Positions 32,176 through 47,066 of a stretch of DNA of 64,000 nucleotides are shown in pieces. The stretch spans positions 1,069,791-1,133,790 of the forward strand of contig NZ_LMKB01000005.1 of assembly GCF_001421165.1 (NCBI RefSeq). The letters run 5' to 3'. The stretch's first letter is position 1. The number at the start of each line of letters is the position of its first letter. A program made the position numbers and the translations under genes. The notes beneath the pieces are model-generated. The model ran no database searches. It was not told the DNA's origin and saw nothing but the letters and a program-made list of their open reading frames with translations. This DNA comes from Frigoribacterium sp. Leaf8. Lineage in GTDB: Bacteria > Actinomycetota > Actinomycetes > Actinomycetales > Microbacteriaceae.

Positions 32176-35100
32176 CTACCCGCGCCAGGGGAACCAGCCG
32201 TGGAAGAGGTCGCCGAGGGCGTTCCAGATCCACTGCAGGATGTCACCGAGGCTCCAGCCGCCGGGGTGTCCGGGCTGACCGGGGTGGCCGGGCTGGCCCG
32301 GGCCGGGCCCCGGGTCGGTGGGCGTCTCGGGCTCTTCTCCCGAGGCGACCGTGAGATAGGTGACCTGTCCGGTGTCGCCGTACACGACGCGGCCGAGGAA
32401 GGTCTGCTCGTAGGGCAGGCCCGTCCAGGACGCGGTCAGCGTCGCCGTCTCGCCCAGCCCTGCGGAGAGGGTGGCCGGGTCGACCGCGAAGCCCCCGACG
32501 GCCGTCGCCGGGTCGAGCAGGTACGACGTCAGCGTGTAGTCGAGCTGTCCGGCACCGCTGTAGAAGTCGACCAGCAGGACGTACTCGCCCGCCGCGGGGG
32601 CGTCGAGGTCGATCTGCTCGTCCGCCGAACCGGTGGCCGAGGACGCCGCGAGCCGGTCGGGCGCACCGTCCGCACCAGCCGTGTAGAGGAGCAGGTCGAG
32701 GTCCGCGGTGTCGTCGGCGCTGTCGAGCACGAAGCGCGCGTGGCTGGTGCCCTCGGCGACCGTGACCGGCGTCTCGGCCGCCGCGGTGCCTGCCGCGCCC
32801 GAGCCGGTCGTGACCTGCCCGGCGGCGAGGCCCTCGGTGGTGAGCGGCAGCTCGAGGGTGTCGCCCGCCGTGACGTCGAACGCCTTCTCGCCCGTGGCGC
32901 CCTCGCCGGCCACCTCGGCCGGTGCCTGCAGCTGGACGGGGCGCACCGCGAGCGGGCTGCGCACGTCGTGGGTCCCGTCGGACCAGGTGAGGTAGCCGGT
33001 GGCGAACTGGTCGAGCTCCGCCGTCGTCCGGGTGAAGGTGACCGTGTAGTCCTGCTCCTCGCCCGCGGCGCCGAAGGTCAACGTCGAGGGTTCGACCGTC
33101 GCCGTCACGCCGTCCATCTCGATCGGGGCGACCGTGTAGGTCCCCGCCCCGGTCGAGGTGACGGTGCGCGTGACCTGGGCGGTGCCGGCCAGCGAGCCGA
33201 CGCTGATCGACGGCAGGTTGAGCGACGAGTCCGTGCCCTCGACGGTGTCGATCGAGTCGACGTAGGCCTGCCAGTCGGCCGGACCGTTCTCGTAGAGCAG
33301 CCCGGGTTCGAGGAACGCGGTCGGGTCGACGTGGCCGGCGCCCTGGGCGAAGACGTCCCGGCTCGGAGCACCGTCCTCACCGACGAGGTCGTAGGCGGTC
33401 GTCATCATGGCCGACTTGACCTCGTCCGGGGTCCAGTCGGGGTGGACGTCCTTCGAGAGGTAGAGCGCGGCCAGACCGGCGATGTGGGGGGACGACATCG
33501 ACGTGCCCGAGAGGAACTCGTACGTGCCGGGCTCGCCCTGCGCGTTGGCACCGTCGGCGAGGATCGCCACGCCGGGGGCCGAGATGTCGGGCTTCAGCAG
33601 GTTGCCGCCGTCGGCCGTCACCGGGCCGCGCGACGAGAAGCCGGCGATCTGGGGGGTGGCGGGCTCGGGCAGTGCGCCCGGGTTGCCGTCGAGCAGGGTG
33701 ACGGTGGCACCTTCGGTGTCGGCGTACGCGTGGACCGCGTCGTAGTCGTCGGCGTTGAGGTGGACCGTGGGGACGGCGTGTTCGTCGAGGTCGACCGAGC
33801 TGCTCGTCGGGTTGACCAGCACCATGCCGATGCCGCCGGCGCGCTCGACCTCGGCCGACTTGGCCGTGCGGTCGTAGACGCCGCGGTCGCAGAGCACGAT
33901 CGTGCCGGCGGCCTTCGCCGGGTCGAGCGTGTCCGGTGCGCAGAGGGTCACCGCGGTGGCGTCGGCGCCGTCGGCCGCGACGGCGGTCGACGAGACGAAG
34001 TCGCCCGTCAGGCCGTCGGTGCCGGTCGGCACGGTGATCGAGCCGCCCAGGTAGTTCGTGCCGTCGGCGGTCTGCACCGTCGCGCTGTAGCTGGGGATGG
34101 TCGACGCCGCGACCGTGGTGATCCACGGTGCCGCGTTGTCGGCGGTGGTCGCGGTCGGGCCGTCGTTGCCGGCCGAGGCCGCCACGAAGACGCCGGCCGA
34201 GGCCGCGCCGAGGAACGCCTGGTCGGTGGCCGAGAAGGTGCTCGTGGCCCCGCCTCCGCCGATCGAGTAGTTGATGACGTCGACGCCGTCGGTGACCGCG
34301 GCCTCGATGGCGGCGATCAGGTCGAGCGTGGCGCAGCCGTCGTCGTCGGTGGCGACGCGGTCGGGGCCGTCCCAGCAGACCTTGTAGGCCGCGATCTTGG
34401 CGGCCGGGGCGACGCCCGAGACGGTGCCGAACGAACGGTCGCCGATGGTGGCCTCGACGTCGGCGTTGCCCGCGGCGGTCGACGCCGTGTGCGAGCCGTG
34501 GCCGTTGCCGTCGCGGGGAGAGAGGTACTCGCCCTGCTCCTCGGTGCCGATGTTGCCGACGCCGAAGCCGTCGACGAAGTACCGCGCACCGATCAGCTTC
34601 GTGTTGCAGTCCCCCGCGTCGAACTGCACGCCGGTCTGGCACACGCCGGTGAAGGTGCCGCCGTCGCCCTTGGCGAAGACGGTCCGGTCGCCGTCGAGGT
34701 GGGGCTCGGTGTCGCTGGCCGACCCCAGGGGGTCGCCGGCGAACGAGGCGTTGCCCGCCGCGATGCCCGAGTCGATGATGCCGACGACGACTCCTTCGCC
34801 CGCCTTCTCGCGTCCGCCGACGGCGTCCCAGACGCCGCCGTTCCCCTCGGCGTCGCCCAGCCCGAGGAACTCGGTCGACGGCGTCGCCTGCAGCTTGAGC
34901 AGCTCGTTCTTCGAGACGGCGGCGACCGAGGGGTCGCTCGCGAGCTCGGCGGCCTGGGCGGCCGTGAGGTCGGCCGCGAAGGCGTTGGTCGTGATGGCGT
35001 AGCTCGCCTGGACGGTGGCGCCGGCCGCCGCCGCGACGTCCTGCTGGACGCCCTTGAGGTGCTCGGCGTAGTCCTGCACGGGAGCGCTCTGCGCGTCGAG

Positions 35101-35373
35101 GTCGCTGCCCTCGGGCACCGCGGTGCGGGCGAGGCCCGGCTGCCCGCCCTCGTAGGTCGCGGCCGCCGGCTCGCGCAGCGTGACGATGTACTTGCCGTCG
35201 GAGAACTGGCTGTCGCCCACGACGGCCGGGCCGTCGGCGGCGAAGGAGGCGGTGGCCGGCACCGCGACGAGGCCCGCGGCGACGACGCCGGTGGCGAGGA
35301 GGGTGGCGAAACCGCCACGGAGTCGGGTGCGGGGCGGAGCGGTCGGCCTGCGTCGGCCGGATGGTGTGATCAC
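32176..35373 (-). CDS. Secreted subtilisin-like S8 protease with PA and C-terminal domains
   Basis: 1065 residues from a GTG with AAAGGCG upstream. A signal peptide (to about 46) is followed by an I9-type propeptide (about 60-160) and the S8 domain with Asp201 (VGIIDSGIA), His292 (NGHGSHTA) and Ser near 627 (SGTSMSSPHIAG). A PA domain sits inside the catalytic domain (about 450-540). After it come an Fn3-like region and beta-rich parts (to about 1010). A Gly/Pro repeat (PGQPGHPGQPGHPG) leads to a Trp-rich end. This is the plant-type subtilase layout common in Microbacteriaceae. It should degrade extracellular protein. Confidence 0.92.
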   Translation of the reverse strand: MITPSGRRRPTAPPRTRLRGGFATLLATGVVAAGLVAVPATASFAADGPAVVGDSQFSDGKYIVTLREPAAATYEGGQPGLARTAVPEGSDLDAQSAPVQDYAEHLKGVQQDVAAAAGATVQASYAITTNAFAADLTAAQAAELASDPSVAAVSKNELLKLQATPSTEFLGLGDAEGNGGVWDAVGGREKAGEGVVVGIIDSGIAAGNASFAGDPLGSASDTEPHLDGDRTVFAKGDGGTFTGVCQTGVQFDAGDCNTKLIGARYFVDGFGVGNIGTEEQGEYLSPRDGNGHGSHTASTAAGNADVEATIGDRSFGTVSGVAPAAKIAAYKVCWDGPDRVATDDDGCATLDLIAAIEAAVTDGVDVINYSIGGGGATSTFSATDQAFLGAASAGVFVAASAGNDGPTATTADNAAPWITTVAASTIPSYSATVQTADGTNYLGGSITVPTGTDGLTGDFVSSTAVAADGADATAVTLCAPDTLDPAKAAGTIVLCDRGVYDRTAKSAEVERAGGIGMVLVNPTSSSVDLDEHAVPTVHLNADDYDAVHAYADTEGATVTLLDGNPGALPEPATPQIAGFSSRGPVTADGGNLLKPDISAPGVAILADGANAQGEPGTYEFLSGTSMSSPHIAGLAALYLSKDVHPDWTPDEVKSAMMTTAYDLVGEDGAPSRDVFAQGAGHVDPTAFLEPGLLYENGPADWQAYVDSIDTVEGTDSSLNLPSISVGSLAGTAQVTRTVTSTGAGTYTVAPIEMDGVTATVEPSTLTFGAAGEEQDYTVTFTRTTAELDQFATGYLTWSDGTHDVRSPLAVRPVQLQAPAEVAGEGATGEKAFDVTAGDTLELPLTTEGLAAGQVTTGSGAAGTAAAETPVTVAEGTSHARFVLDSADDTADLDLLLYTAGADGAPDRLAASSATGSADEQIDLDAPAAGEYVLLVDFYSGAGQLDYTLTSYLLDPATAVGGFAVDPATLSAGLGETATLTASWTGLPYEQTFLGRVVYGDTGQVTYLTVASGEEPETPTDPGPGPGQPGHPGQPGHPGGWSLGDILQWIWNALGDLFHGWFPWRG

Positions 35374-40859: not shown

Positions 40860-40909
40860 GCGGGGGTGAACAACGACGGTCGTCGCCGTATGCCCGGTCT
40901 TGGCGATCG

Positions 40910-42031
40910 TCAGGTCGAACCGGTCGTCTCGGACGATGGAACGCATCCGCATTCGAGACGTGGTGGGATCGGACGCCAGACGCTGTCGAAACTGGCGAGA
41001 TCGACCTCGCGGACACCTCCGGCGAGTGCCGGTGGTGCCCCGAGCAGTATCCGGAGCGCCTCCCATGCCGTCATGTTCCCCACCACGCCGGCCAACGGGG
41101 CGGCTGAGCCGCCGGGCGAAGAACCCTTCAGAGTTCGCGCGGCACGTCCGTGATCGTCGGCTGTCGCGGCACGGATGCACGACCAGCACGTCGTTCGGCC
41201 GGGCAGGACGGTGACACCCGGCACCCCGAGCAGGGCGCCGTACGCGCCTCCGACGATGTGCGGGACACCGACCGCGGTGCTCGCCGTCGCCACGACGTCG
41301 GCCACGACGGGCACCGAGGGCTGGTCTGCGCAACTCACGACGAGATCGGCACCCGAGAGCAGGGTCGCGAGCTGTTCCGCGGTGTCCACCCGAGTGCGCC
41401 AGACGTCGACGGTGATGTCCGCGTCGATCTCGGCGACTCGCTCTGCGGCTGCGTCGACCTTGACTCGTCCGATGTCTCCGGAATCGAAGAGCACCTGCCG
41501 GTTCAGATTGGAGAGTTCGACGACGTCGGGATCGATGAGCACGAGCCTTCCCACCCCAGCCGCGGCCAGCGATTGGACGACCCACGAACCAGCACCACCG
41601 ACGCCGACCACGACCACGCACGCACCGGTGAGCCGGCTCTGGATCGTCGAGGCGTCGTGTCCTCGAGCGACTGCGGACAGTTCATCGGCCGAGATCATCT
41701 CGTCGAACAGCTGCAGCTGACGCGAATGCCTCGTGGCACGGTCGGTGGAAGATGCCTCCGACGCCAGGAAGCGTTCGGATTCGAGGACCTCCAGCACGTC
41801 CTCGAGCGCTCCGCGATCAAGCAAGGAAAGCGTCTGGGCGAGCTGCACTGGCGTGCGAGTCCCATCGAGCAGCGGGACGAGGTCCGCCACCCAGGGCTCG
41901 ACGGAGAAGGTCGACACGACCCGCTCGTACGTTGCCCTGAATTGCAGGCGACCGTCTGCGAGCTGGACGACGATGATGCTGTCTCGCAGACGGGGGCGGG
42001 CGGCTGAGCCCGTTCTCGCGTCAGCGCTCAT
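40910..42031 (-). CDS. RRE-ThiF (E1-like) peptide-modifying enzyme
   Basis: 373 residues. Residues about 15-95 look like a RiPP recognition element: beta strands then a winged helix, with [16 protein letters not shown] and [15 protein letters not shown]. The E1 domain follows: ATP loop VGVGGAGSW (Gly143, 145, 146 and 148), Asp167, SNLNRQ with Arg178, Lys191, and SCADQP (Asp236). Zinc ligands are Cys282/Cys285 (CWSC) and Cys361/Cys363, the last pair spaced CxC rather than the usual CxxC. E1 enzymes adenylate a carboxylate, as in MccB on microcin C7. No YcaO partner is present. The ATG overlaps the permease stop (ATGA). I infer it acts on the peptide at 46224. Confidence 0.88.
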
Positions 42032-44493
42032 GACGTGCCCCTCAGAATCGTCAGGGGCTCCGTGCGGGAGGCCCGCAGGACCGGCCCCACGGCGGCGATG
42101 GCGAGAGCGATCGCCGTCACGCCGACGATTCCCGCGATCGTCACGGGATCGACCACCGGGTCGACCCCCACGCCGAGGAGCCTCGAGACGATCCGCGTCC
42201 CGAGTGCTCCCCCGAACGAGCCGAGGAGCAGTCCTGCACTCAGCGACGCCACGGCGATCACGGTGGCGTCCCAGGCGACGAGGGCACCGACGCCGCGACG
42301 TCGGCACCCCACGGTGCGGAGCACGGCGAGTTCATCACGCCGCGATTCGACGTCGAGGCTCAGCGTGCTGCTGGCCCCCAGGGCCCCGAGGGCCAGAGTC
42401 ACCGTCACCGCTGCGAAGAGTCCTGCCGTGAGGGCTGCCGTCTCGGAGGCTGCACGATCCCTCGTCGCCTCGGCGGTGATGACGTCGACACCGGGGACTC
42501 CGACCACCTGCGCGGCGACGCGGTCTGACAAGTCGGCGACATCGACCCCTCCGTCTGCCGACACGTCCCACCGAGAGACCCCCGTGACACCGAGTTCGCC
42601 CGCCGTCCTGCGGTCGATGACGACCTGTTGCCCCGTGGCCACCGAGGTGAAGAGCCCGACGACTTCGAGGGACACCTGGGTCCCCCCGGCCGACACGACG
42701 ACCTCATCACCCGGGGCCACCGTCAGGGACTCGGCGACCCCCCTCGGCAGAGCGATGCCCCCACCGGCCCTCAGCAACTCGACACCTCTCGATCCGCCAC
42801 CGGCGGACCACGCGAGCCCCGACACGTCGAACCAGGTCTCGGGGTCGATCGCCTGGAACGGCACGTCGAGTTCGGCGGACGCCGACAGGACGGTGGCTTC
42901 ACCGGACACCGACCGCGCGACGTCCCGAACGCCGTCGACGACGACGATCGGCTCGGCGTCGTCCGACAAGGGCACGACCGACGTGACTTGCACGTCGGCC
43001 CCGAACTGCCGATCGATCTGTTCCCCTGTCGCGGAGGCGACGGCACCGACGCAGGTGGCGAGCGACACCGCACCGAAGACCACCAGGGTGAGAGCCCCGG
43101 TCACCGTCGACCTGCCGCGGGTCGGTCGGCGACGCGCCAGGTCGGCGGCCCACTGGAGCCTGGCCGCGAACGCCGCCAGGGGCGCGATCGCGAGGCGGGA
43201 GAGGGCCACCGCACAGACCGCCAGGGCGACCAGGCCCAGAGCGTCGAGGACGGCGCCTGCGTCGAGGGCCCAGATCACCAGCCCCGAGACCGATGCGACC
43301 ACGGCGACCGCGACGGCTCGTCGCCGTGAGCACGATCCGGGCGAACCGTCTGCGGGTTCGACGCCCCTCACGACGAACGCCGGCGGAATTCGACGGACGT
43401 CGGCGACGGCTCGTCGGGCCCCGAGCGTGGCGGAGGTCGCTCCCGCGAGGACGCCGAGACCGACCGAGAGGGTGAGGGTCGGAAGAGACGGAGCCTCCCC
43501 GTCCATCCGACTCATCACCACCGCAGCGCCGGCGACGCCGACCGCGACGCCCACGACCGTTCCGGCCGCTGCGACGATGGCGATCTCGGCGCCGACCGAC
43601 GAGACCAACCACCGTGTGGACGCGCCCGTGGCCCGCAGCACACCGTAGGTACGGCGCCGTGCTCGGACGGCAGCCGTGCTCGCCAGTGAACCGAGCAGTG
43701 CCGACACGGCGAGGGCGACCAGAGCGAGCCCTGCCATCACCGCCGTCACGGCCGTTTCGATGGGCCCGAGGCCGTCGGCCACGGCCGACGTGTCCTGGAA
43801 GACGGCGCCGGACGGGAGCGCCGCTCGGTGTTCTGCTGCCCAGGTGGACGCAACTGCAGGATCGAGTTCGAGGTCGAGACGGGTGAGGTCACCCTCGAGC
43901 CCGAACGCCCTCTGGACGACCTCGAGGTCGGTGAAGAGGTTGTCCCGGGCGAAGACACCCAACAAGCGGGGGTCGACGAGCCCCACCACGTCGAACGAGC
44001 GGACGCCCGAGGGAGTCGTCATCGACATTCGACTCCCCAGGGAGGCGCCCATGCGGTCTGCGACATCTGTCGGCACCAGGACCTCGTCCGAGCCCGGTCG
44101 AGGAGCTCGACCGTCGGTGACCACCTGGGAGGCGAGTGAGTCCGGCCCGGCCGGGGCCCCGGTCAGGAGGAGGGCCTCGGCCTCACCCGTCGCGCCGACC
44201 ACGACCGTCTCTCGACTCAGGGTGGGGAGCGACGACACGACTCCGGCATCGGCGGCGAGTGCGTCCACGAGACCCTCGTCGACGAACTCACGATCCACCT
44301 CGGGGACGATGCCCACGTCCCCGAACGTGAGCAACGAATCGATTCCGTCGACGACCGTCTGGCGCGCCGTCAGCCCGGTGACGAGTGAGGCCGTGAGAAG
44401 GGCGACCCCCAAGGCTGCCGTGAGGGCGGTGAGTCCTGCCCGCCGCCGTCCGTCAGCGATGTTCCGCCAACCAAGCGCGAACGCGTTCTTCAT
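42028..44493 (-). CDS. FtsX-type ABC permease (MacB/LolC-like, two modules)
   Basis: 821 residues. Helix 1 (about 20-42) is followed by a large outer domain (about 45-255), then three helices near 260-290, 310-340 and 350-375 (first FtsX module). Two or three helices come around 415-470, a second outer domain at about 500-670, and three helices in the last 140 residues (second module). It pairs with the ATPase upstream. Such exporters move peptides or lipids out of the membrane, or remove peptides as resistance. The start overlaps the ATPase end by 41 bp and follows GGGGAGGG. Confidence 0.88.
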   Translation of the reverse strand: MKNAFALGWRNIADGRRRAGLTALTAALGVALLTASLVTGLTARQTVVDGIDSLLTFGDVGIVPEVDREFVDEGLVDALAADAGVVSSLPTLSRETVVVGATGEAEALLLTGAPAGPDSLASQVVTDGRAPRPGSDEVLVPTDVADRMGASLGSRMSMTTPSGVRSFDVVGLVDPRLLGVFARDNLFTDLEVVQRAFGLEGDLTRLDLELDPAVASTWAAEHRAALPSGAVFQDTSAVADGLGPIETAVTAVMAGLALVALAVSALLGSLASTAAVRARRRTYGVLRATGASTRWLVSSVGAEIAIVAAAGTVVGVAVGVAGAAVVMSRMDGEAPSLPTLTLSVGLGVLAGATSATLGARRAVADVRRIPPAFVVRGVEPADGSPGSCSRRRAVAVAVVASVSGLVIWALDAGAVLDALGLVALAVCAVALSRLAIAPLAAFAARLQWAADLARRRPTRGRSTVTGALTLVVFGAVSLATCVGAVASATGEQIDRQFGADVQVTSVVPLSDDAEPIVVVDGVRDVARSVSGEATVLSASAELDVPFQAIDPETWFDVSGLAWSAGGGSRGVELLRAGGGIALPRGVAESLTVAPGDEVVVSAGGTQVSLEVVGLFTSVATGQQVVIDRRTAGELGVTGVSRWDVSADGGVDVADLSDRVAAQVVGVPGVDVITAEATRDRAASETAALTAGLFAAVTVTLALGALGASSTLSLDVESRRDELAVLRTVGCRRRGVGALVAWDATVIAVASLSAGLLLGSFGGALGTRIVSRLLGVGVDPVVDPVTIAGIVGVTAIALAIAAVGPVLRASRTEPLTILRGTS

Positions 44494-45226
44494 GGGCCCT
44501 CCCCTCGACGCTGTCGATCGTGGCCGCCGGTGTGAAGCGTTCGTCGGCGATGACTCGGCCGTCTCGCAGGACGATGATCCTGTCGGCGATGCAGGCGGTC
44601 TCGAGGTCATGGGTGACCACCACGACCGCTGACGCCTGGTCGTCGACGACCATGCCCCGGAGCAGCCTCAGGACATCCCGTGAGGTCGCACTGTCGAGCG
44701 CGCCGGTCGGCTCGTCGGCGAGGACGAGAGACGGACGGGAGAAGAGCGCTCGAGCCAGGGCCACACGCTGGGCCTCTCCGCCCGACAAGGTGGCCGGACG
44801 GGCCGATCCGAGACCGTCGAGGCCGAGTTCGTCGAGCAGCGCGTGCGCTCGATCCGCCCATTCCGAGCGGCGTCTTCCCGCGACGAGTGACGTGAGCGCG
44901 ACATTCTCGAGCACCGACAGGGTCGGGACGAGGTGGGAGTCCTGGAAGACGAATCCGATGCGATCTCTTCGCAGGACGGTGCGCTCCGCCTCGGAGAGGG
45001 AAGAAAGTGTCATTCCGTCGAAGACGATCTGACCGTGATCGGGCGTGTCGAGAGCACCGACCATCTGCACCAGAGTCGACTTGCCCGAGCCGGAGCGACC
45101 GACGATCGCGATGATCTCGCCCTCGTGAAGGTCCAACGAGACACGGTCGACGGCGGGCGGTCTCCCACCTCGGCTCTCGAAGAGCCGTGACACTTCTCGG
45201 ATCTCGACGAGCGGAACCGTGCTCAT
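44453..45226 (-). CDS. ABC transporter ATP-binding protein (MacB/LolD type)
   Basis: 257 residues. Walker A GRSGSGKST (43-51), Q-loop FVFQDSHLVPTLS, signature LSGGEAQRVALARAL, Walker B SLVLADEPTGALDS and switch His in VVVVTHDLETA. This matches the LolD/MacB group that works with FtsX-type permeases. Its ATG overlaps the acyltransferase stop (ATGA). With the permease it probably exports, or protects against, the cluster's peptide. Confidence 0.93.
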   Translation of the reverse strand: MSTVPLVEIREVSRLFESRGGRPPAVDRVSLDLHEGEIIAIVGRSGSGKSTLVQMVGALDTPDHGQIVFDGMTLSSLSEAERTVLRRDRIGFVFQDSHLVPTLSVLENVALTSLVAGRRRSEWADRAHALLDELGLDGLGSARPATLSGGEAQRVALARALFSRPSLVLADEPTGALDSATSRDVLRLLRGMVVDDQASAVVVVTHDLETACIADRIIVLRDGRVIADERFTPAATIDSVEGRAHEERVRAWLAEHR

Positions 45227-46149
45227 GCCGCCGACTCCGTCCGCATCAGATCGAAGTCGGTCCACATCTCCCAGTCGCCGGCGCGGCCGTCGAGGATGAG
45301 CCTCTCGATGAGTCGCCACAACGCGACCGTCGACCCCTGGACCTCGACGTCATCTGTCGGGGCGGGAATCGCCGGGTGGATCGTCAGGACGAAGTGAGCT
45401 TCTCCCGTCCGGTCGAGGTGCATCGGCAGCATGGCTGCGCCCGCGGCACGACTCATGAGGGCCGGCCCCTGCGGTGCGACGACGGAAGCCCCCAGGAACG
45501 GGACGACGGTGTGGTGACGGCCTCGGCCTCTGGGATCGTATTCGGGGAACATTGCGAAGACGAGCCCGTCCTTGAGCGCTCGGAGCCCCTTTCGGAAGGT
45601 CGCGTCGTCGTCGATGGCGAAGGCGTCGACATCGAGAGAGGGAAACGCCCGATCCCGGAGCTCGTCGAAGTTCATCCTGTTGAAGACGAAGCGCGTGGGG
45701 TGTCGGTGCGCGATGATCGGCGGGACGACGTAGGACGCCCCGAAGTGCAGGGGCAAGGCCAGGGCGCCACGGCCGTGCTCCCTCGCCTCCTCGAGGTGCT
45801 CGCCGCCACGAACCTCGACGACCTCGTCCAGCCGAGCTCGGTCGTCGAGCCACAGCGTGACGAACGTCGACTCGAATTGCATCCGAGGCCCGTAGTCGCC
45901 ATATCGCCCCGCTGCAGCGTCGATGTCGACGGAGGCGAGACCTGGCAAGCCCCCCATGGCGGCACGGGCCTTGGCCGCCATGCCGGCGCTCGTGTCGGAC
46001 GGGTCGGCGATCGAGTCGTAGGCGGGCAGGTCGAACCGGGCGATGTCGTTCATGAGTCGCCACGCGGCAGCGGGCCCGGCGGCGCGGAGCGCCGACCAAA
46101 GACGTTCGTATCGGACGACCTCGAAGAGGGTGAAGATGGGAAGGGACAT
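45223..46149 (-). CDS. LpxL/LABLAT-like acyltransferase in peptide cluster
   Basis: 308 residues, a usual length for lysophospholipid/lipid A acyltransferase-like proteins. The core is recognisable: ALALPLHFGASYVVPPII (His135) and then VFAMFPEYDPRGRGRHHTVVPFLGASVVAPQGPALMSR, which aligns with the family's second conserved block. The catalytic HX4D/E motif reads HX4Y here (His135 to Tyr140), so the usual acid is missing or displaced. It has no signal peptide. It directly follows the precursor peptide and its hairpin. I infer it acylates the peptide, or has been re-purposed as a binding protein. It differs from PatA, which has HX4D. Confidence 0.78.
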   Translation of the reverse strand: MSLPIFTLFEVVRYERLWSALRAAGPAAAWRLMNDIARFDLPAYDSIADPSDTSAGMAAKARAAMGGLPGLASVDIDAAAGRYGDYGPRMQFESTFVTLWLDDRARLDEVVEVRGGEHLEEAREHGRGALALPLHFGASYVVPPIIAHRHPTRFVFNRMNFDELRDRAFPSLDVDAFAIDDDATFRKGLRALKDGLVFAMFPEYDPRGRGRHHTVVPFLGASVVAPQGPALMSRAAGAAMLPMHLDRTGEAHFVLTIHPAIPAPTDDVEVQGSTVALWRLIERLILDGRAGDWEMWTDFDLMRTESAA

Positions 46150-46189
46150 GTCGACTTTCGGGAGATGCGGTCACCGGACTGACGGGGAA

Positions 46190-46216
46190 GGCGGACCGCC
46201 CGATGGGCGGCCCGCC
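46190..46216 (-). terminator. Attenuator-like hairpin between peptide gene and operon
   Basis: A 12-bp stem GGCGGGCCGCCC / GGGCGGTCCGCC (11 pairs, one wobble) with a 3-nt loop, 7 bp after the peptide stop. There is no long T run, so it is probably partial: it would allow much more precursor than enzyme mRNA, as is common in bacteriocin operons. Confidence 0.75.
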
Positions 46217-46223
46217 CCGGATG

Positions 46224-46298
46224 TCAGGTGCAGAGGCATCCGCCGTTGCAGCGTGCTGCGCTACCCGGCTTGAGCGTCGTGCTCTCGATTTTCTTCAT
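46224..46298 (-). CDS. 24-residue Cys-rich RiPP precursor peptide candidate
   Basis: The ATG at 46298 is preceded by a strong AGGAGGGA ribosome site 4 bp away. The peptide has a basic, Thr-bearing first part (two Lys at 2-3, Lys10, Pro11, Arg16) and then CNGGCLCT: Cys17, Cys21 and Cys23, ending in Thr24. It is first in the operon and separated from the enzymes by a hairpin. A CxxxCxC end after an Ala-Arg is a plausible core, with residues 1-16 as leader. It is too short for ordinary gene calling. No homologue is known to me. Confidence 0.75.
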   Translation of the reverse strand: MKKIESTTLKPGSAARCNGGCLCT

Positions 46299-46376
46299 GC
46301 GTTCCCTCCTCCCACGTCGAGTCGACGAGACACCTCCGAGTCTCGGCATCGGCAGCTCGACTCGAAAGTCACGGCC

Positions 46377-46436
46377 GTCACGAAGTCACCACGCATCCGT
46401 CATGTCGACGTCATGAGACATACTGGTCACGAAGTC
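46377..46436. promoter_or_regulatory. Direct repeats in the peptide/regulator divergent region
   Basis: GTCACGAAGTC occurs twice (46377-46387 and 46426-46436), 49 bp apart, in the 159-bp region between the peptide gene and the LuxR-type gene. An imperfect palindrome ATGTCGACGTCAT lies between them (46402-46414). These are candidate sites for the adjacent regulator. Confidence 0.5.
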
Positions 46437-46457
46437 GATGACGAGTAGGGGGATGCC

Positions 46458-47066
46458 ATGTCGACCGACGGGCCGATCGACGTGTGCGTGGTCGCCGACG
46501 AGGTGCTGACGCGGTCGGCGATCGAGGCGTGCATCCGTGTGACGCCGGGGCTGAAAGCTGTCGCGATCCACGATTCCGCGAAGCCCTGCTCCGAACCAGG
46601 GCCACCCCCGTGGAGCGTGCTGGTCATCGACGCCGACGACCACCCCGACGTCGTGGACGCCGCCCGGCGACTGCGCGAGGGGCACGACGCCGTCGTCGTC
46701 CTGGGTCGCCGCTTACCCGCCGTGCTCGTCCGTCAGATCGTCCAGTCGGGCATCGACGCGGTCGTCTCGAAGCGGGCGAGCATCGACGAACTCCTCGCCG
46801 TCGTCCGGCGAACGGCTGCCGGAGAAGACCACGTCGACCCGAGGTTGGCGGCCACGGTCCTCCGCGCCGAGGCGTGCCCGCTCACGGCACGCGAGCGTGA
46901 CGTCCTGCGCCTCGTCGACCGGTCGCTCTCGACCAGACGGTGCGCCGCCGAGCTGCACCTCGCCGAGGGCACGGTGCGCAACCTGATCTCGTCCGCCGTC
47001 CGCAAGGTCGGGGCGCCCGACCGCGGACGGGCCGCCTCGGACGCGCGAGATCTCGGTTGGATCTAG
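46458..47066 (+). CDS. LuxR/NarL-type response regulator of the peptide cluster
   Basis: 202 residues. Residues about 5-120 form a receiver-like domain: CVVADEV at the start, Asp58 in VLVIDADD and Lys105 in VVSKRAS, with a ~12-residue Pro-rich insert near 42-52. The normal second acidic residue is partly kept (Asp14). Residues 140-200 are the LuxR helix-turn-helix: PLTARERDVLRLVDRSLSTRRCAAELHLAEGTVRNLISSAVRKVGA. No histidine kinase is nearby. It is divergent from the peptide operon and so is the probable regulator. Confidence 0.88.
   Translation: MSTDGPIDVCVVADEVLTRSAIEACIRVTPGLKAVAIHDSAKPCSEPGPPPWSVLVIDADDHPDVVDAARRLREGHDAVVVLGRRLPAVLVRQIVQSGIDAVVSKRASIDELLAVVRRTAAGEDHVDPRLAATVLRAEACPLTARERDVLRLVDRSLSTRRCAAELHLAEGTVRNLISSAVRKVGAPDRGRAASDARDLGWI

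Follow-up and report, generated by a model that had tools for sequence, protein, structure and literature searches.

Fusions of an RRE to a ThiF domain that activate a peptide carboxylate constitute a published, enzyme-defined group of ribosomally synthesized and post-translationally modified peptides (RiPPs; PMC12250964, PMC12150305, both cited here from excerpts). These enzymes adenylate the carboxylate and thereby prepare it for capture by a nucleophile (PMC12150305, PMC12250964), and there are 27,400 candidate RRE-ThiF fusions (PMC12150305). Here, we describe a block comprising a 24-codon gene and five larger genes in a 64,000-nucleotide stretch of contig NZ_LMKB01000005.1 from Frigoribacterium sp. 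Leaf8 (the window). A sequence-only reading of this DNA had taken the block for a RiPP cluster that fits no known class. The second part of that claim was not supported as worded: the adenylating enzyme (E1) fits the published RRE-ThiF group (PMC12250964, PMC12150305). The first part gained support, and we consider it likely that the block is an RRE-ThiF RiPP cluster of the MccB/PaaA type that operates by the mechanism proposed below.

The precursor gene (46224-46298, minus strand; MKKIESTTLKPGSAARCNGGCLCT) lies behind the ribosome site GGGAGGAGGGAACGC. Downstream on the same strand are genes for an LpxL/PatA-like acyltransferase of 308 residues (45223-46149; PF03279), a MacB/LolD-type ATP-binding cassette (ABC) ATPase of 257 residues (44453-45226; PF00005, with no peptidase domain reported by Pfam), an FtsX-type permease of 821 residues (42028-44493; PF02687), and the RRE-ThiF (MccB/PaaA-like) E1 of 373 residues (40910-42031; PF00899; R178, K191, D236, C282, C285, C361). 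In this order, the four genes overlap by 4, 41, and 4 bases. A LuxR/NarL-type regulator of 202 residues (46458-47066, plus strand; PF00196) is divergent. All five large proteins exceed the Pfam cut-offs for these families. None reached a curated NCBIfam cut-off among the best 25 families per protein, and NCBIfam yielded no match for the 24-residue peptide. Open reading frames (ORFs), Pfam matches, and folding thus confirmed what had been read from the letters: a 24-codon gene with a strong ribosome site and a CNGGCLCT end, a hairpin, four overlapping genes, and a divergent LuxR-type gene.

The peptide has a leader, M1-R16, containing K3 I4, L9 K10, and G12, and a core, C17 N G G C L C T24, with the border probably between R16 and C17. 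Its C terminus follows the pattern C-x3-C-x-C-x-stop (C17, C21, C23). A six-frame scan of 808,887 bases, covering the window and the 55 loci returned by a contig scan with E1 as the query, detected this pattern six times; one match crosses a stop codon, leaving five real ones. Only two of these, the window's and that of Leifsonia sp. TF02-11 (L003), have a start preceded by a ribosome site within 60 codons. Similarly, L003 is the only one of the 55 loci that also has an acyltransferase match (E 1e-4). The Leifsonia locus has the four large genes in identical order, with identities of 45% for the acyltransferase, 49% for the ATPase, 37% for the permease, and 49% for E1. Directly upstream is a gene for a 24-residue peptide (L003 3667-3741; GTG start, residue 1 taken as Met), VEKIKDIDLKAGATLACGSQCMCS, behind AAAGGAGGTGA. 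The sequence-only reading had predicted a short C-x3-C-x-C ORF upstream of related E1 operons, and the one homologous operon found indeed carries it in the same place, in support of the RiPP interpretation.

The two peptides have nine of 24 residues in common: M1, K3, I4, L9, K10, G12, C17, C21, and C23. In shuffle tests, none of 200,000 scored as high as the whole peptides and 132 of 200,000 scored as high as the leaders alone. The putative cores, CNGGCLCT in the window and CGSQCMCS in Leifsonia, contain no Asp or Glu, and the conserved features are their thiols and, at the last position, Thr/Ser. This conservation of the thiols would suit a three-cysteine, metal-binding peptide whose complex is moved by the ABC pair. 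We regard this explanation as improbable: it leaves E1 and the acyltransferase unaccounted for, and neither the block nor 12 scanned flanking ORFs include a metal-related gene. Within the genus, the peptide sequence is identical in genomes G1039 and G1042. The DNA of the latter is 94.7% identical to the window; its peptide gene has three silent and no other changes over 25 codons, and amino-acid changes affect 11 to 26 codons in each of its other five genes.

We modelled E1 from a six-row alignment (predicted local distance difference test, pLDDT, 76.6). Its ThiF domain scored 153.9 bits against PF00899 (cut-off 28.1). In Foldseek, ranks 1-14 were all PaaA or MccB, over 352-369 columns, the top match being PaaA 5ff5 (E 5.6e-22). 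In VIA-align, MccB rows aligned with 304-327 residues of the model beginning at residue 10-11 (Z 28.1-28.8). Their root-mean-square deviation was 7.3-8.5, which we take to reflect a differing angle between the two domains. The rows of ThiF and MoeB covered the catalytic part only (Z 27.5-30.4), catalytic-only rows extending over about 212-251 residues. Because the MccB rows reach beyond these, the model predicts an N-terminal RRE fused to the ThiF domain. The spacing of the ATP/Mg residues R178, K191, and D236 equals that of EnfB R167, K180, and D225 (PMC12250964), and all three occur in each of the 21 E1-like proteins aligned.

In a tree of these 21 rows, nine of 18 inner branches were open and long branches met, so we used only two pairings: window with Leifsonia (100/99) and Nonomuraea with G793 (100/100). 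Window/Leifsonia was joined weakly (87/94) by the Nonomuraea pair and by a group made up mostly of Firmicutes. At L060 11831-13098, the Nonomuraea gerenzanensis E1 (43% identity) lies behind a short peptide ORF that ends ...SNSHGN, without cysteine. The leader of this ORF fits the register of the other two; 53 of 200,000 shuffles did as well in comparison with the window's leader and 3 of 200,000 with that of Leifsonia, both optimistic values given the hand-picked register. The G793 E1 (L117; 41% identity) follows a frame that ends S-N-S-A-G-N, without a good start as assembled. Both E1s thus follow a frame ending S-N-S-x-G-N, with an Asn end as in MccA.

These data bear on whether E1 is a sulfur-carrier or cofactor enzyme of the ThiF/MoeB type that is in the operon by chance. 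The highest-scoring models and structures for the ThiF domain alone are indeed those of ThiF and MoeB. However, E1 has the additional N-terminal domain as in MccB, and its NCBIfam scores among the families listed are far below the curated cut-offs. The operon, to which the search for a carrier was confined, has no GG-ending one, its sole small gene ending CLCT or CMCS, and the genome has another E1 match elsewhere. We find this explanation hardly credible. The earlier concern that such genes might be found mostly in sulfur-carrier or cofactor operons did not apply to the nearest relatives, those of Leifsonia and Nonomuraea, which accompany a peptide ORF; it did describe the more distant ThiF-domain matches, which are mostly MoeB/ThiF-like, as expected for the superfamily.

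In the mechanism that we propose, the N-terminal RRE of E1 would bind the precursor leader (K-I-x4-L-K-x-G), and the ThiF domain would use ATP to adenylate a carboxylate of the core. As the putative core lacks Asp and Glu, the C-terminal carboxylate is the candidate site. A thiol of the same core would capture the activated carboxylate to form a macrothiolactone, with C17 or C21 as the partner; the remaining thiols may be free, paired, or acylated. We place this thiolactone to the C terminus somewhat below an even prospect. The PF03279 protein would probably acylate the peptide or attach it to a lipid. Export of the product or protection of the producer would fall to the ABC ATPase/FtsX pair, and control of expression to the LuxR-type protein. 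An enzyme encoded elsewhere would remove the leader.

The same type of enzyme could instead convert the C terminus to a peptidyl nucleotide, amide, or imide, as MccB or EnfB does, the cysteines being disulfides or metal ligands. After one type of activation, ThiF-like enzymes yield phosphoramidate, bicyclic, thiolactone, imide/amide, and indolylamide products (PMC12150305, PMC12250964), and the Asn-ending frames ahead of two of the nearest E1 relatives recall MccA. Against this outcome, the two precursors end in Thr or Ser rather than Asn, and thiol capture is the simplest use of three fixed cysteines. We judge it unlikely, although it deserves weight.

Several observations weigh against the proposed RiPP cluster. 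Just two different peptides underlie the conservation of leader and core: that of the window, shared by G1039 and G1042, and that of Leifsonia. Of 25 E1 loci in other genomes, only about six had a short upstream ORF that was convincing by eye (L064, L100, L101, L102, L103, L114); the rest did not, L093 aside (see the G793 frame). The Leifsonia locus has no match to the LuxR-type regulator at E 1e-4, and its hairpin stretch as a whole is not significant. The VIA-align row of PaaA (Z 25.6) is confined to the catalytic part, model residues 94-356. The Arg, Lys, and Asp of E1 are also kept in MoeB-type rows, and therefore show adenylation and not peptide work; it is the N-terminal domain and the peptide that speak for a RiPP role. 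The operon includes no leader protease. The initial statement that protease genes are lacking is right for the operon; an ORF that by eye encodes a large, secreted, subtilase-like protein (32176-35373, minus strand) lies about 5.5 kb from E1, outside the inserted segment.

The acyltransferase contributes two further points of this kind. A structure model from a two-row alignment was unusable (pLDDT 35), and the HX4(D/E) motif is replaced by HX4Y (H135-x4-Y140) in the window, Leifsonia, and G1042. HX4(D/E) is the usual motif of PF03279 acyltransferases. The protein scored 59.8 bits against PF03279 (cut-off 22.3), H135 is retained, and so is E203, which aligns with a PatA Glu. In the printed alignments, LpxM entry 5knk has A at that D/E position where entry 5kn7 has E. 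With Tyr140 at this position, the PF03279 protein may be an altered or different transferase. Judged from its sequence, acylation of the peptide by this protein is nearly an even prospect. In a fuller scheme, which we regard as unlikely, activation of the C terminus by E1 would be combined with a second reaction: the LpxL-fold protein, despite the change in its active site, would transfer a fatty acyl group to a cysteine or link the activated peptide to a membrane lipid. If true, the product would be a lipid-modified cysteine macrocycle, a RiPP lipidated by a lipid-A-type acyltransferase.

The acyltransferase occurs in three of 16 genomes of the genus: its own, G1039 (13 kb identical), and G1042. 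Apart from the genus set, the genome sets searched were samples. Among 296 class genomes, it was found in its own only (1e-15), and among 299 family genomes in its own plus a weak match in G287 (E 6.4e-6) with four stops. At 1e-38, the E1 profile matched two of 398 family genomes (its own and G175) and 18 of 394 class genomes, some without the N-terminal domain. The G175 enzyme (L129), a second E1 of the window's family, was set aside, having no clear short peptide or acyltransferase. A phylum search at 1e-30 matched 146 of 396 genomes, mostly in the catalytic domain only; one RRE-type locus from it was used (L064). Query P0001 had no match in plasmids. In the 13 genus genomes without the acyltransferase, matches to the flanking luciferase-like monooxygenase and araA genes were 163-233 bases apart in seven, about 690 bases apart in two, and on different contigs in three. 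The block is thus an insertion into a conserved neighbourhood.

The remaining genome, G1038, retains part of the block. Its locus (L130, G1038:C66, 3137-7183) lacks window 40907-41965, which is nearly the whole of E1, and 45247-46337, which is the peptide and nearly the whole acyltransferase. The ATPase, the permease (98%), and the regulator (97%) are open and full length, with 1/2, 26/18, and 7/6 silent/other codon changes relative to the window, respectively. The acyltransferase is not elsewhere in the genome; the loss of E1 was seen at the locus only, E1 not having been sought genome-wide. G1038 is possibly a non-producer that keeps protection, although a block in the midst of decay would give the same picture. 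As a natural congener in which only the producing genes were lost, it makes enzyme order, product, and self-protection directly testable in laboratory hosts.

This partial loss also bears on the function of the short ORF. A GC-rich hairpin (inner stem-loop 46183-46219, minus strand) follows the peptide stop: stretch 46150-46240 folds at -46.4 kcal/mol (z -3.6). It has no T-run and was not listed by the terminator scan, and is probably an expression divider rather than a T-tailed terminator. The Leifsonia peptide gene also has a strong stem 3' of it, but the whole stretch has z -1.2. With a hairpin directly after it and ahead of the first large gene, the short ORF could be a regulatory leader ORF that acts by attenuation, E1 acting on something else. 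However, leader and C-terminal residues are conserved between operons only 37-49% identical, drift within the genus is silent only, E1 aligns with MccB past the catalytic domain, and in G1038 the ORF was lost along with E1 and the acyltransferase while the transporter was retained. Attenuation is thus very improbable, and we continue to favour a precursor peptide.

Seven more E1 loci were inspected. Short ORFs occur at L061 and L006, a longer Cys-rich one at L005, and none at L004, L143, and L062; the seventh, L141, is a poor control given the 10-residue floor of the ORF scan. At L061 (6765-9327), L064, L100, L102, and L103, the short ORF ahead of the RRE-ThiF gene contains an R-K/R-L-D/E-K-x-E-T-T motif, in what looks like another little-known peptide family. 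At L061, an M50 (site-2 protease) gene then follows, and L064 has a similar gene by eye. A Sporolactobacillus locus (L005 6132-11391) has a Cys-rich 80-residue ORF, two different RRE-ThiF-like genes in tandem, and a gene for an ABC protein resembling UvrA, all named by eye. At L004 (6724-9045), an RRE-ThiF-like gene adjoins one for an arginase-family protein (PF00491) with an additional N-terminal region.

Membership in three described classes was ruled out. The block is not an azole RiPP cluster, as neither its five large proteins nor the 12 flanking ORFs include a YcaO cyclodehydratase. It is not a GRC cluster, as the core has no acidic residue and the five large proteins include no radical-SAM enzyme. 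It is not a microcin C cluster, as the last precursor residue is Thr in the window and G1042 and Ser in Leifsonia, rather than Asn. Nevertheless, microcin C7 is similar in that an RRE-ThiF enzyme, MccB, acts on a very short precursor, and 304-327 residues of the E1 model align with its fold. In L141, which we take to be microcin C-like from its gene content, the gene after the MccB-like one encodes an MFS protein; the window's block has an ABC/FtsX pair. PaaA of pantocin A, the best Foldseek match, uses Glu side chains. MccA is usually seven residues long (PMC6495379, an excerpt) with an Asn end (PMC12150305); the precursors described here have 24 and end C-x-C-T/S. Intramolecular cyclisation by PaaA yields a bicyclic core (PMC12150305); the window's core has no acidic residue. 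In GRC RiPPs, a ThiF-like enzyme and a cysteine likewise give a thiolactone (PMC12250964). However, GrcB links an internal Glu to a Cys at the C terminus, and tailoring is by an enzyme of the radical-SAM type (PMC12150305), features absent from the window's block, whose proposed thiolactone involves the C terminus. EnfB of enterofaecin and IndF are RRE-ThiF enzymes that modify a short peptide at its C-terminal carboxylate, as proposed for E1, and EnfB has the same R/K/D spacing (PMC12250964). Their cores are of the Trp/Ile type, from enterococci and streptococci, with an M16 protease in ind; the window's is all-cysteine and actinobacterial.

Within the open-access literature, supplements excluded (for example, Figure S1 of PMC12150305), no paper joins ThiF, RiPP, acyltransferase, and FtsX; lipid A biosynthesis acyltransferase, RiPP, and acylated; or Microbacteriaceae, RiPP, and ThiF. 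The kind of system is known; what appears new in that literature, and may be present in supplements, is the combination of an all-cysteine core, a PF03279 acyltransferase, and FtsX export. If the acylation is real, an acyl group on a ribosomal peptide would be shared with lipolanthines, goadvionins, lipoavitides, and selidamides. Lipidated RiPPs have been described with GNAT-type acyltransferases (PMC13060382, an excerpt); the window's block has the PF03279 protein, with no GNAT among its five large proteins by Pfam and no lanthionine enzyme. The RRE-ThiF RiPPs are a large, mostly uncharted group whose branches studied to date yielded different bonds, and the window's branch joins, in few genes, an RRE-ThiF enzyme, an all-cysteine core, and a lipid-A-type acyltransferase.

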